Source: Agromyces sp. Root81
Lineage (GTDB): Bacteria; Actinomycetota; Actinomycetes; Actinomycetales; Microbacteriaceae
Assembly (NCBI RefSeq): GCF_001429165.1
Contig: NZ_LMIR01000003.1
Span: 62,001 to 126,000, forward strand
DNA length: 64,000 bases
Direction: 5' to 3'
A program made the position numbers and the translations under genes. Below the pieces are notes generated by a model that had not been told where the DNA came from, ran no database searches, and saw only the letters and a program-made list of their open reading frames with translations. Positions 5,128-16,562 of this stretch are shown piece by piece; within the stretch, counting starts at the first letter, position 1; every line of letters begins with the position of its first letter.

Positions 5128-6567
5128 GTGACCGAGACGACTGCTGTGGGATTCCGTTCGGAGCGCGGGCCGGTGCTCATCTCCGTGATGCTGGCCACGG
5201 GCCTCATCGCGATCGACTCGACGATCCTCGCGACCGCGGTGCCGTCGATCGTCGCCGACCTCGGCGGGTTCACCCAGTTCCCGTGGCTGTTCTCGATCTA
5301 CCTCCTCGCCCAGGCCGTCTCGGTGCCGATCTACTCGAAGCTCGCCGACACCGTCGGCCGGAAGCCGATCATGCTCATCGGCATCGGCATCTTCCTCGTC
5401 GGCTCTGTGCTCTGCGGCTTCGCCTGGGACATGACCTCGCTCATCGTCTTCCGCGCGATCCAGGGCCTCGGCGCCGGCGCTGTGCTGCCCGTCTCCATCA
5501 CGATCACCGGAGACATCTACACCGTGCGCGAGCGCGCCCGCGTGCAGGGCTACATCGCGAGCGTCTGGGCGGTCTCCTCGGTCGTGGGCCCCACGCTCGG
5601 CGGCCTGTTCGCCGAGTTCGCCTCGTGGCGCTGGATCTTCTTCGTGAACATCCCGCTCTGCCTCATCGCCGCGTGGATGCTCGTCCGCTCGTACCACGAG
5701 TCGGTTCACCGTGAGAAGCACCGCATCGACTTCGCCGGCGCGACCGTGCTCACGATCGCCTCGACCCTGCTGATCCTCGCGGTGCTCGAGGGCGGCCAGG
5801 CGTGGGAGTGGCTCTCGTGGCAGTCGATCGGCGCGTTCTCGATCGGCGCGGTGCTGCTCGTCGCATTCGTGTTCATCGAACGCCGGGCCGCCGAACCGGT
5901 GCTGCCGCTGTGGGTCTTCTCGCGTCGGCTCATCGTCACGACCTCGCTCATCTCGCTCGGCGTGGGCGCGGTGCTGATCGGGCTCACCTCGTACGTGCCG
6001 ACCTTCCTCGAGGCGACGGCCGGCGCCTCCCCGCTCGTGTCGGGACTCGCGGTCGCCGCGCTGACGCTCGGCTGGCCGATCGCGGCGAGCCAGGCGGGGC
6101 GGCTCTTCCTCCGCATCGGATTCCGCCGCACCGCGCTCATCGGCCTGGCGATCGCCGTGCTCGGTTCGACGGCGCTCGTGGCGGCCTCGCTCACGCCGAA
6201 CGTCTGGACCACCGCGATCGCGTGCTTCATCGTGGGCCTCGGCCTCGGCCTCGTGGCCTCTCCCACGCTCATCGCCGCCCAGTCGTCGGTGCCGTGGTCG
6301 GAGCGCGGCGTCGTCACCGGGGCCAATATGTTCCTCCGCTCGATGGGCAGCGCGGTCGGCGTCGCGATCTTCGGGGCGGTGGCCAACGGCGTGATCGCGC
6401 GGTCGGGTCTCGGCGAGCACTCCCCCGTCGCGATCCACGGGGCATCGACGGCCGTGTTCGTCGCGGTGCTCATCGCGGCGGTCGTCACGATCGCGGGCGG
6501 CCTCGCGATGCCGAGCGCGCATGTCGACGACGTCGAGCACCGGGTGGGCGAGCCCGCCGGCGCCTGA
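5128..6567 (+). CDS. DHA2-type MFS drug exporter
   Basis: A 479-residue major facilitator of the EmrB/QacA (14-helix, DHA2) class, expected to export hydrophobic or cationic compounds by proton antiport in the plasma membrane. The first helix contains the signature IDSTILATAVPSIVADLGG; motif A appears as KLADTVGRKPIM between helices 2 and 3; helix 5 has the antiporter-type pattern around SSVVGPTLGG. The GTG at 5128 follows a GAGGGGGA ribosome site, which decides it against several in-frame ATG codons upstream. A monocistronic unit with no adjacent regulator. Confidence 0.9.
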   Translation: MTETTAVGFRSERGPVLISVMLATGLIAIDSTILATAVPSIVADLGGFTQFPWLFSIYLLAQAVSVPIYSKLADTVGRKPIMLIGIGIFLVGSVLCGFAWDMTSLIVFRAIQGLGAGAVLPVSITITGDIYTVRERARVQGYIASVWAVSSVVGPTLGGLFAEFASWRWIFFVNIPLCLIAAWMLVRSYHESVHREKHRIDFAGATVLTIASTLLILAVLEGGQAWEWLSWQSIGAFSIGAVLLVAFVFIERRAAEPVLPLWVFSRRLIVTTSLISLGVGAVLIGLTSYVPTFLEATAGASPLVSGLAVAALTLGWPIAASQAGRLFLRIGFRRTALIGLAIAVLGSTALVAASLTPNVWTTAIACFIVGLGLGLVASPTLIAAQSSVPWSERGVVTGANMFLRSMGSAVGVAIFGAVANGVIARSGLGEHSPVAIHGASTAVFVAVLIAAVVTIAGGLAMPSAHVDDVEHRVGEPAGA

Positions 6568-6594
6568 GCCGGGCGCGAGCAGCCGCGCCGCCCC

Positions 6595-8034
6595 TCACCC
6601 CAGCCCCGACGGCGGCACGACGTCGCCCTGCAGCGTGCGCACCCAGCGGTCGCCCGTCTCCCGGAACTGCGCGTGCGTCGTGAACCGGTAGTGGTAGGCG
6701 CGGGCGCGCACCCAGCGCGGGGCGGCCCCGTCGAACGGGTCGGTGTCGAGCAGGGCGAGCGTCGGGGCATCCGCTTGGAGCAGTCGCAGCAGGAAGACTT
6801 CGAACCAGGGTTCCCACATTCGCCCGAGCGGCAGGAACCACATGAGCCAGTCGAGCCGCAGGTGGTACGGAGCGAACTGCCGCGGGATGCGCCGGAGCGC
6901 GCCGGGCTTGCCCTTGAAGGCGTACTCGCGCCACTCGGCCTCGTCGTCGGGCAGCTCGGCGAGCGTGCCCTCGACGACGATCTCGATGCGCCGCTTCGTC
7001 ACCGTGCCGAAGGCGCCGTAGGCGTTCACGAGCATCCAGCGGTTGAACGACGCGTTCATGAGCTGGCGCCGTGAGAGCAGGTTCCTGATCGGCCAGAAGC
7101 TCAGCACGACGAGCAGAGCGGATGCCGCGAGCACCGTGCCCGCCCACCAGACCGGCGTCGCCGCGGCATCCGTGCCCAGGTCGGTCGGGATCGCGGGGAT
7201 CAGCCAGTGCCAGGCGGAGTCGGTGACGGCGGATGCCGCGAGCACCACCGTGATCCAGTTGAGCCACGCGAAGTTGCCGGTCACGATGAGCCAGAGCTGC
7301 GTGAGGATCACGATCGCCGCGGCCGACGAGCCGACCGGGCCCGGCACGAACAGCAGGAACGGAACGACGAGCTGTGCGAAGTGGTTGCCGAGCACCTCGC
7401 CGCGGTGGAACCACTGGGGCAGCAGGTGCGCCTGACGGCTGAGCGGGCCCGGCATGGGCTGGGTCTCGTGGTGGTAGGTGAGCGCGGTGAGGTCGCGCCA
7501 TTCGCGCCCGCCGCGGATCTTGATCATGCCCGCCCCGAACTCGAGCCGGAACACGAGCCACCACACGGCGATGACGATCGTCAGCGGCGGGGGCGTCTGG
7601 TCGGAGCCGAGGAACGCCATCGTGAAGAGCGCCTCGCAGAGGAGCATCTCCCAGCCGAAGCCGTAGAAGGTCTGGCCGACGTTCACGATCGAGAGGTACA
7701 GGATCCAGAGCGCGAGGAAGACGCCGAGCGGCAGCCACGGCGGACCGAGCTGCGGCAGGCCGGCGAGGACGGATGCCGAGAGCACGAGCCCGACGACCGC
7801 GACGGCGACGAGCCGCCGGTCGGTGTACCCCCAGCGGAAGATGCTCGGGCCGCGGAGGCGCCGCGCGCGGCGCAGCAGCTCGGGCACCGGCAGCATGCCG
7901 CGCTCGCCGAGGAGCGGGCGGAACTGGTTCAGCGTCGAGAGGAAGGCCACGAACGCGAGCGCGCCGACCCCGCGCTGCAGGATCTGCCGTGCGATCTCGT
8001 AGTCGTGCGCGTCGAACCAGGCGGTCCAGTCCAC
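6595..8034 (-). CDS. Lipase maturation factor family protein
   Basis: A 479-residue multi-pass membrane protein related to vertebrate lipase maturation factors LMF1/LMF2 (PF06762). The family hallmark runs YGFGWEMLLCEALF, then RLEFGAGMIKIRGG with EWRDLTALTYHHETQPMPGP, and a long C-terminal soluble part beginning near KGKPGALRRIPRQFAPYH. In animals LMF1 helps fold secreted lipases in the ER; bacterial members have no proven role. About ten hydrophobic segments occupy the first 330 residues. It is convergent with the MFS gene and separated by 27 bp. Confidence 0.82.
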   Translation of the reverse strand: MDWTAWFDAHDYEIARQILQRGVGALAFVAFLSTLNQFRPLLGERGMLPVPELLRRARRLRGPSIFRWGYTDRRLVAVAVVGLVLSASVLAGLPQLGPPWLPLGVFLALWILYLSIVNVGQTFYGFGWEMLLCEALFTMAFLGSDQTPPPLTIVIAVWWLVFRLEFGAGMIKIRGGREWRDLTALTYHHETQPMPGPLSRQAHLLPQWFHRGEVLGNHFAQLVVPFLLFVPGPVGSSAAAIVILTQLWLIVTGNFAWLNWITVVLAASAVTDSAWHWLIPAIPTDLGTDAAATPVWWAGTVLAASALLVVLSFWPIRNLLSRRQLMNASFNRWMLVNAYGAFGTVTKRRIEIVVEGTLAELPDDEAEWREYAFKGKPGALRRIPRQFAPYHLRLDWLMWFLPLGRMWEPWFEVFLLRLLQADAPTLALLDTDPFDGAAPRWVRARAYHYRFTTHAQFRETGDRWVRTLQGDVVPPSGLG

Positions 8035-14697: not shown

Positions 14698-14745
14698 CGC
14701 TCCGCTCACAGCAGCACTGCTCTCGGCGGCATCCGCCCCACGCGA

Positions 14746-14770: not shown

Positions 14771-15412
14771 ATGAGCGAACACGACTCCCCACCGATCCAT
14801 CCGATCGACGCCGAGCTCACGAGGCGCCTCTTCCACGAGCGCATCATCGTGCTCGGCGACGAACTCGACCAGCAGGGCGGCAACCGGCTCTGCGCGCAGC
14901 TCGTCACCCTCGCGGCCGACGACCCGCGCCGCGACATCCGCTTCTGGATCAATTCGCCCGGAGGCTCTGTCTCGGCGATGCTCGCGATCGCCGACGTCAT
15001 GCGCTCGATCCCGAACGACGTGTCCACGATCGCCGTCGGCATCGCGGCGAGCGCGGGCCAGTTCCTGCTCTCGGCGGGCACGAGGGGAAAGCGGTTCGCG
15101 CTGCCGCACTCTCGCATCCTGATGCACCAGGGCTCTGCCGGCATCGGCGGCACCGCCGTCGACATCGAACTGCAGGCCGATGACCTGCGCTCCACGCGCG
15201 ACACGGTGCTCGGCATCACCGCCGAGAACACGGGCCAGCCGATCGAGCGCATCGCCGAGGACTCGCTGCGCGACCGCTGGTACTCCGCGACCGAGGCCGT
15301 CGACTACGGCTTCATCGACCGCATCGCCGACGGCTTCGGCGAGATGTTCCCCGGCGGCGATCGGCCCCAGGTGGGACTGCAGGCCAGCACCGGAACAGGA
15401 GCTCCATCATGA
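14771..15412 (+). CDS. clpP: ATP-dependent Clp protease proteolytic subunit (active)
   Basis: A 213-residue ClpP serine peptidase subunit. The triad is intact with canonical spacing: Ser94 in GIAASAGQ, His119 in LMHQ and Asp168 in SLRDRW (25 and 49 residues apart). FWINSPGGSVSAMLAIADVM is the family hallmark. ClpP forms tetradecamers with ClpX/ClpC to degrade unfolded or tagged proteins; housekeeping actinobacterial clpP1P2 usually lies with tig and clpX, which are absent here, so this looks like an accessory pair. It overlaps the next gene by 4 bp (ATGA), so the two subunits are probably made together and may form mixed rings. Confidence 0.93.
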   Translation: MSEHDSPPIHPIDAELTRRLFHERIIVLGDELDQQGGNRLCAQLVTLAADDPRRDIRFWINSPGGSVSAMLAIADVMRSIPNDVSTIAVGIAASAGQFLLSAGTRGKRFALPHSRILMHQGSAGIGGTAVDIELQADDLRSTRDTVLGITAENTGQPIERIAEDSLRDRWYSATEAVDYGFIDRIADGFGEMFPGGDRPQVGLQASTGTGAPS

Positions 15413-16038
15413 GCAGCTACACGATCCCCTACGTCATCGAGAAGCGCGGCAACAGCGAGCGCTCGCTCGACGTCTACAGCCGGCTGCTCTCGGAGCGCAT
15501 CGTCTACCTCGGCACCGAGATCGACGACGGCGTGGCCAACGTGCTCATCGCCCAGTTCCTGCACCTCGCCTCGGAGTCGAGCGAGACGCCGATCAGCCTG
15601 TACGTGAACTCCCCCGGCGGCTCGCCCTGGGCGGCCCTCGCGGTCTACGACACGATGCAGCACATCCGGCCCGACATCGCGACGACGTGCGTCGGCCAGG
15701 CGGGCGGACCGGCCGCCGTGCTCCTGGCGGGCGGCGCCAAGGGCATGCGGGCCATCCTCCCGCACGGCCGCGTCGTGCTGCACCAGCCGTCGACGCAGGG
15801 CCGCGGCACGATCCCCGACCTGATCCTGCACGCCGACGAGGTCCTGCGGGTGCGGGCCGAGCTCGAGGCCGCGCTCGCCGCCGCCACCGGCCGCGACGCG
15901 ATGACCTTGCGCCACGACACCGATCGCGACCTCATCCTGCCTGCGGCGGCGGCCGTCGAGTACGGCATCGCCGACCACGTGCTGACGGCGCAGGTCGAGG
16001 TGGCGGGCTCGGCCGCCGCCTACGCCGCGAGCAGGTAG
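15409..16038 (+). CDS. clpP: ClpP paralogue lacking the catalytic serine
   Basis: A 209-residue ClpP-like subunit. The fold motifs LYVNSPGGSPWAALAVYDTMQ and VVLHQPSTQG are clear, and the positions matching His (H125) and Asp (D174) are kept. The nucleophile position is Gly100: the usual GQAAS(M/A)GA reads GQAGGPAA, with codon GGA at 15706-15708. The subunit should therefore be proteolytically inactive, like ClpR-type subunits of plastids and cyanobacteria, and could shape a mixed ring or dock the ATPase. It is translationally coupled to the active clpP and its 3' end overlaps the convergent regulator by 19 bp. Confidence 0.9.
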   Translation: MSSYTIPYVIEKRGNSERSLDVYSRLLSERIVYLGTEIDDGVANVLIAQFLHLASESSETPISLYVNSPGGSPWAALAVYDTMQHIRPDIATTCVGQAGGPAAVLLAGGAKGMRAILPHGRVVLHQPSTQGRGTIPDLILHADEVLRVRAELEAALAAATGRDAMTLRHDTDRDLILPAAAAVEYGIADHVLTAQVEVAGSAAAYAASR

Positions 16039-16562
16039 GCCGTCGGCTCGGCGGGCGCGTGCTGCCTGCCGGGCCCAACGACGGCGAGCGGATGCCCCGG
16101 CGCGACGTCGACCGCGCCGTGCAGGTCGGTCACGTCGACCAGGCCGAACTCCTCGCCGGCATCGATCGCCTCGGCTGCGTCGGCCCGGAAGGCGAACGAG
16201 GTCTCGACCCGCAGGATCTCACGCCGCTCGGCTGCGCGTCGCTCGGCCTCCCGGCGTTCGCCGAGCAGCCCGCCGACGCGTTGCACGACGTCGACGAGGT
16301 CGAGTCCGAGGGCTTCGGCGACCGAGCCGAGCAGCTCCGACGAGGGCTCCTTGCGGCCGCGTTCGATCTCGGAGAGGTACTGCGGTGAGACGCCGGCCGT
16401 GGCCGCGACCTCGGTGAGGATCCGCTCCTGCTCGAGTCGCTCAGCCCGCAGCACCTCGCCGAGCGCGTGCCGCCAGAGCGGCTTCGCGGCGTCTCGGCGC
16501 TGTGCGCGCTGCTTCGAGGTGTGCGGAGCGGCGACCCGGGTGAACTCGACGACGTTGCCCAT
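16020..16562 (-). CDS. ClgR/PopR-like XRE regulator with -LLAA tail
   Basis: A 180-residue regulator whose HTH (residues about 33-95) reads EVLRAERLEQERILTEVAATAGVSPQYLSEIERGRKEPSSELL, the pattern of ClgR/PopR activators of actinobacterial clp genes. The C-terminus is TAYLLAA; in Streptomyces, PopR is degraded by ClpP and needs its terminal alanines for this, so an ssrA-like degron is likely here. It is convergent with the clpP pair and overlaps the stop region of the second clpP. Inferred role: an unstable activator of the adjacent pair, accumulating when Clp proteolysis is limiting. Starts at ATG 16562; the 32-residue N-terminal extension is basic and of unknown role. Confidence 0.82.
   Translation of the reverse strand: MGNVVEFTRVAAPHTSKQRAQRRDAAKPLWRHALGEVLRAERLEQERILTEVAATAGVSPQYLSEIERGRKEPSSELLGSVAEALGLDLVDVVQRVGGLLGERREAERRAAERREILRVETSFAFRADAAEAIDAGEEFGLVDVTDLHGAVDVAPGHPLAVVGPGRQHAPAEPTAYLLAA

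Follow-up and report, generated by a model that had tools for sequence, protein, structure and literature searches.

The window, a 64,000-nucleotide stretch of the Agromyces sp. Root81 genome (C3:62-126 kb), contains two adjacent clpP genes in the same orientation and a regulator gene convergent with them. The first, clpP-A (14771..15412, + strand), encodes a ClpP3-like, putatively catalytic subunit of 213 amino acids, in which the Ser-His-Asp triad that marks a catalytically active ClpP is intact and the docking pocket and N-terminal loop are reduced. The second, clpP-B (15409..16038, + strand), overlaps it by 4 bp (15409-15412) and encodes a ClpP4-like protein of 209 amino acids, which has Gly in place of the catalytic Ser (GQA-G-G-P at the nucleophile site versus the usual GQA-A-S-A) but keeps the His, the Asp, the N-terminal loop (YTIPYVIE) and the pocket Tyr. 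Both products match Pfam CLP_protease (E values of 2.6e-61 and 2.4e-58). The PopR/ClgR-type helix-turn-helix regulator (16020..16562, - strand; 180 amino acids; Pfam HTH_3) overlaps clpP-B by 19 bp at its stop end, and its C terminus, AYLLAA, is a candidate Clp degron. Finally, a putative tandem PopR-type operator (14703..14728, unstranded), made of two GCY-N3-RGC dyads 15 bp apart, lies 68 bp before the clpP-A start codon. The ORF coordinates and Pfam matches confirm the layout given in a preliminary description of this DNA (two clpP genes with a 4-bp overlap and a convergent ClgR/PopR-type regulator), and its claim of one active and one dead subunit agrees with the intact triad of A and the missing Ser of B.

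That description also took the pair to be accessory. The genome (4.16 Mb, 99.97% complete) encodes four ClpPs, and the second clpP pair is found at C1:802.3-803.6 kb, where the order on contig C1 is tig, clpP1, clpP2, clpX and where both triads are intact. The genome has a single ClpX zinc-finger match, which lies on the same contig beside this housekeeping pair. As had been stated, there is no clpX, clpC or tig in the window: no clpX or tig homolog was found within the 64 kb, and the Clp_N proteins (ClpC/ClpB type), at C2:619 kb, C3:141 kb and C4:612 kb, are all outside. Because a separate tig-clpP1-clpP2-clpX locus exists, as the preliminary description had suggested checking, the window pair, which is not linked to tig or clpX, is accessory; the refuting case of a genome with no other clpP does not apply, since the second pair is present. 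The window pair does resemble housekeeping clpP1P2 in being a clpP gene pair in an operon, but the separate locus with its intact triads led us to reject this identity, and it is further contradicted by the genus, in which four ClpPs are encoded by 50 of 60 genomes and two by the other 10; the latter lack the accessory module but still carry the other pair. We regard a housekeeping role of the window pair as practically untenable. In the housekeeping locus of this genome (L005), an unrelated-looking ORF with the appearance of a P-loop ATPase (6538-7578, - strand; GENGSGKSTLLEG) lies between clpP2 and clpX and splits the usual cluster.

In the family, 35 of 249 genomes had a B-like match of at least 58% identity over nearly the full protein, and among 394 genomes of the class, about 107 (hand count) had a B-like score above those of four housekeeping pairs, L154-L157. 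About four fifths of these ca. 107 were retrieved. The module set initially comprised 148 distinct loci; L154-L157, rejected as modules because they are housekeeping pairs beside clpX, were left out of all final counts, giving 144 loci distinct in B DNA. The clpP-A/clpP-B overlap of 4 bp was present in 103 of the 144. The layout recurs across the class and is thus not a chance arrangement, the point on which conservation of the neighborhood had been proposed as a check. What did not stand was the claim that the module is self-contained. It encodes no ATPase and would therefore have to borrow ClpX or ClpC, and by the published Streptomyces scheme, as given in sections of PMC9765437, it is the housekeeping ClpP1P2 that destroys the activator.

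A ClgR-family gene adjoins the clpP pair, and its product is a predicted activator; against the NCBIfam ClgR model, it scored 72 bits, under the cut-off of 170. This cut-off (NF041677) was reached in 0 of 14 control genomes, Corynebacterium glutamicum included, and would consequently miss many ClgR relatives. A convergent related regulator was present in the examined flanking DNA of 128 of the 144 module loci and absent from the flank in 16. Its C-terminal tail was AA in 121 of the 128 (LAA in 112), leaving 7 that lacked AA. An Ala-Ala end is needed for the ClpP-dependent decay of PopR, and AYLLAA could provide it; we infer from this tail that the window regulator may be unstable. The second ClgR-like gene of the genome (C4:45.8-46.1 kb; L158, 1504-1812, - strand) follows a cinA-like gene, and its product ends in MMVR, without an Ala-Ala tail. 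The LAA tail is therefore a feature of the module, and the housekeeping regulator of this genome may not be degraded as a Clp substrate of that type.

The candidate operator was described by a pattern, TGCYNNNRGCANNNNTGCYNNNRGCA, written after seeing the promoters of the genus, to which the window site has 2 mismatches and is the only match in the window. With up to 2 mismatches, the pattern was found before clpP-A in 30/30 loci of the genus, 20/29 of the rest of the family and 51/85 others, compared with shuffled controls of 0 in the genus, 0 in the family and about 0.1 of 89 others. At the same threshold, none was found in 250-bp stretches inside clpP-B. Even with 3 mismatches allowed, it was absent from 20 of the 85 loci outside the family and from 3 of the 29 family loci outside the genus. 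The best match started at -67 to -70 in only 21 of 30 genus loci, in 17 of 20 in the family and in 24 of 51 elsewhere; the remaining best matches in the genus were one or two repeats further up. Two further candidate locations were rejected. Before the regulator gene, matches with up to 2 mismatches showed no excess (0/25 in the genus, 1/25 and 2/75 in the other sets), and a scan of the whole genome allowing 1 mismatch gave 22 strand matches, fewer than the backward control (63 and 72). The operator before clpP-A is the only genome site taken as real. ClgR boxes (GTTCGC-5N-GCG) occur before housekeeping clpP1 (L005, 8651-8664, no mismatch) and clpX (6513-6529), but they are only suggestive because the 24 matches with at most 1 mismatch in L005 are at chance level.

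These features recall the PopR-clpP3-clpP4 operon of Streptomyces (S. lividans; Viala 2000, 2002), which we know through what PMC9765437, PMC9775585 and PMC12607617 relate of it. The two systems are alike in gene order, convergent regulator, LAA tail and tandem operator, in having a catalytic first gene and a broken second gene, and in the setting, that is, adjacent co-directional clpP genes away from tig/clpX with a housekeeping pair elsewhere in the genome. Relative to the Streptomyces PopR box, quoted in part of PMC9775585 as TCTGCC-3N-GGCGAATCTGCC-3N-GGCAGA, the window operator before the first clpP has the same spacing, dyad and 15-bp period, whereas the letters differ (GCTGCY/CACTGCY versus TCTGCC); it could mediate an equivalent regulation. 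Similarity to ClpP4 was used to retrieve 80 loci from named Streptomyces; the convergent regulator was present in all 80 (75 ending in AA), and TCTGCC-N3-GGC[AG]A[AG] was found within 300 bp before clpP3 in 48. The ClpP3 triad was intact in 78 of these loci and not fully readable in the other 2. ClpP4, on the other hand, had lost the catalytic His in 80/80, with Ser-Gly-Asp in 79 and Ser-Ala-Asp in 1. Judged by gene order, LAA tail and tandem operator, the window locus reads as a PopR-clpP3-clpP4 module, as the preliminary description had proposed. Its overall interpretation stood for the accessory nature, the active/dead pair and the PopR-like circuit, but not for a distinct variant set apart by one dead subunit: since ClpP4 of the named Streptomyces loci is dead too, a dead partner does not distinguish the window module, and an S. 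coelicolor allele lacking critical residues is already mentioned in a passage of d'Andrea 2022 (PMC9067928). The two differ in the residue affected, Ser (to Gly) in the window B and His (to Gly in 79, to Ala in 1) in Streptomyces. The locus itself fits a known system, and what is of interest is the evolutionary pattern that surrounds it; searches of open-access text returned no mention of the PopR link, of repeated loss, of its one-sidedness or of an operator conserved across families.

The triads of A and B behaved in opposite ways across the modules. Ser-His-Asp was complete in A in 144/144 actinomycete modules, while of 141 distinct B proteins, 113 were broken and 28 intact. The Ser was replaced in 94 (by Gly, Ala, Trp, Glu or Phe), the His in 14 (by Gly, Asp or Gln) and the Asp in 19. 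Since similarity to the window B, or to aligned broken Bs, decided which loci were taken, 113/141 cannot be read as a prevalence, but the contrast between A and B within the same loci is unaffected by this sampling. In the modules sampled, B is as a rule predicted to be dead, and the 28 intact B triads mean that a dead ring is not required. As controls, we took the housekeeping pairs of 60 of the same genomes (59 matched), in which the triads were intact in 58/58 distinct ClpP1 and 58/59 distinct ClpP2 proteins. In four module Bs of family code f27 (L123, L136, L139 and L140), Glu replaces Ser and His or Asn replaces Asp, so that the whole active site appears remade, and it is kept over several genomes.

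The main tree was a maximum-likelihood phylogeny of 43 B representatives and 7 outgroup rows, with the triad columns omitted. On it, the intact and broken states required 6 changes, of which at least 4 were forced by well-supported branches; a larger quick tree (102 representatives) also gave 6 changes, 3 of them forced. We rejected one origin of the broken B, which appeared in 0 of 200 bootstrap trees, while constraining the broken rows together cost 177 log-likelihood units (AU p 8e-87). When rooted on housekeeping ClpP2, the first-branching Bs were intact and the changes are therefore read as losses, with the root and a few inner branches weakly supported. Relatives of the window module thus appear, from their sequences, to have broken the same partner several times and in different ways. 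The Bs with Ala for Ser (AHD clade, in the range L043-L090) come from at least 8 family codes (f1, f10, f11, f24, f25, f27, f34 and f36) and are mostly grouped, and four modules (L065-L068) are on plasmid records of Tsukamurella, Prescottella, Embleya and Streptomyces. From this grouping and these records, the module seems to move between families.

Repeated breakage of B by differing lesions suggests that the broken half is the docking ring and not the blade, and the docking surfaces showed the opposite pattern to the triads, kept in B and worn in A. The pocket positions given for E. coli ClpP in the part of PMC9765437 concerned are Y74, Y76 and F96. Position 76 of B was Tyr in 141/141, and position 96 was Phe, Tyr or His in 140/141 (in the window B it is His, not Phe or Tyr). 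In A, position 76 was Trp (92) or Tyr (34), but only 13 of 144 had an aromatic residue or His at position 96. Among the pairs inspected, B had the N-terminal IPxVIE loop known from E. coli ClpP and A did not. The position 96 aromatic of A was already lost in 10 of 12 representatives with an intact B, and a correlation test over independent branches between loss of the A pocket and loss of the B triad gave no signal; taken together, A seems to have lost docking first. If A no longer docks and B need not cut, the B triad becomes dispensable, which would explain its repeated loss.

The lost nucleophile of B, together with the loss of His or Asp in other lineages, could also be seen as the decay of a pseudogene retained in an operon with a useful clpP-A. 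However, across six genus pairs, dN/dS was 0.07 to 0.18 for B and 0.09 to 0.27 for A, with B as low as or lower than A in 6/6. clpP-B is under purifying selection, and we rejected the pseudogene reading on these values; the invariant pocket Tyr and the maintenance of the B reading frame, the 4-bp overlap and the operator over the class also oppose it, and we consider it very improbable. We give equally little credence to a B that still cuts through another nucleophile or a residue supplied by its partner. His and Asp are kept in the window B and in most relatives that lost Ser, and Listeria ClpP1, with its odd triad, works only inside a mixed core, as an excerpt of PMC9765437 notes, but the Ser position is Gly, Ala, Trp, Glu or Phe depending on the lineage and others lose His or Asp, so no single alternative chemistry fits.

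The best explanation of the whole, to which we assign a probability of roughly 0.75, is that the locus is a PopR-clpP3-clpP4 backup module, silent until the housekeeping system fails, in which the A ring would cut and the B ring would dock. A working housekeeping ClpP1P2 (ClpXP1P2) would degrade the LAA-tailed activator and keep the module silent. If the housekeeping core were blocked, the activator would accumulate, bind the tandem operator and switch on clpP-A and clpP-B. This is modeled on Streptomyces, where PopR is degraded by ClpXP1P2 and ClpP3/ClpP4 appear when ClpP1P2 fails (in the account of the operon in PMC9765437). A and B would form a mixed 14-mer (A7B7) with a cutting A ring, while the noncatalytic B ring would provide the platform on which the ClpX or ClpC of the cell docks and would control entry. 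A7B7 with the borrowed ATPase would take over and could then remove the regulator. Gene order, operator, LAA tail, the A/B triad contrast and the opposite docking-surface patterns are legible in the DNA; assembly of the A and B rings and their activity we infer.

A different use of the subunits would be a swap into the housekeeping core (A for ClpP1 or B for ClpP2) that remodels or poisons ClpP1P2. A is closer to the ClpP1 of the same genome (45% identity) than to B (36%), and there is the example of ClpP-ADEP, from an ADEP producer, which takes ClpP1 apart and associates with ClpP2, as portions of PMC12607617 describe. Yet A and B are co-encoded and overlapping in the 103 loci counted above, and Streptomyces survives on clpP3clpP4 without clpP1clpP2 (a statement within PMC9765437), and a swap strikes us as improbable. 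We hold it to be rather unlikely that the main function of the module is resistance to natural products directed at ClpP, through the addition of an insensitive core. ClpP3P4 is ADEP insensitive and expressed when ClpP1 is lost (parts of PMC12607617), and S. coelicolor without clpP3 clpP4 is killed by beta-lactones (as mentioned in the review PMC9775585). Resistance is, however, compatible with the backup module as its selective cause.

A cutting/docking division has precedents. In Streptomyces, proteolysis comes from ClpP1 alone, and the ATPases dock on ClpP2 only (relevant text of PMC9765437); the same holds for M. tuberculosis ClpP1P2 in vivo (passages of PMC9067928), and PMC4416901 also supports this division. 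The window pair resembles these experimentally established catalytic P1 and docking P2 subunits in its sequences. The housekeeping pairs differ from it in keeping both triads, whereas the accessory B is mostly broken, in their separate tig/clpX locus and, in Agromyces sp. Root81, in having their own ClgR-type gene without an AA tail. A non-cutting subunit is also known from cyanobacteria and plastids, where ClpR, which has the ClpP fold but no catalytic residues, is part of a mixed core, a parallel drawn in a section of PMC9067928; compared with ClpR, the losses described here started from intact relatives within the actinomycete ClpP4 lineage. We lean, by a modest degree, towards the view that actinomycetes evolved a ClpR-like non-cutting ClpP ring several times within one backup operon. 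A would have given up ATPase docking first and B would then have lost its triad repeatedly and by different residues, never the reverse, leaving a backup protease that cuts with one ring, and so with half of the catalytic sites, under conditions of stress or ClpP poisoning.

The backup module looks like the housekeeping cut/dock design carried to its end, with the cutting site of the docking ring repeatedly deleted by nature, while both housekeeping triads stay intact by sequence. Such modules are natural half-dead cores with which to ask what the second triad does, why it has been retained in the housekeeping pair and whether a dead ring improves survival of the cell under ClpP-aimed drugs. 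The sole broken housekeeping ClpP2 of the 59 (L196, from genome G585) has Trp for the catalytic Ser, and the module B of the same genome (L146) is also broken (Asp to Ser), so this genome may have no cutting docking ring.
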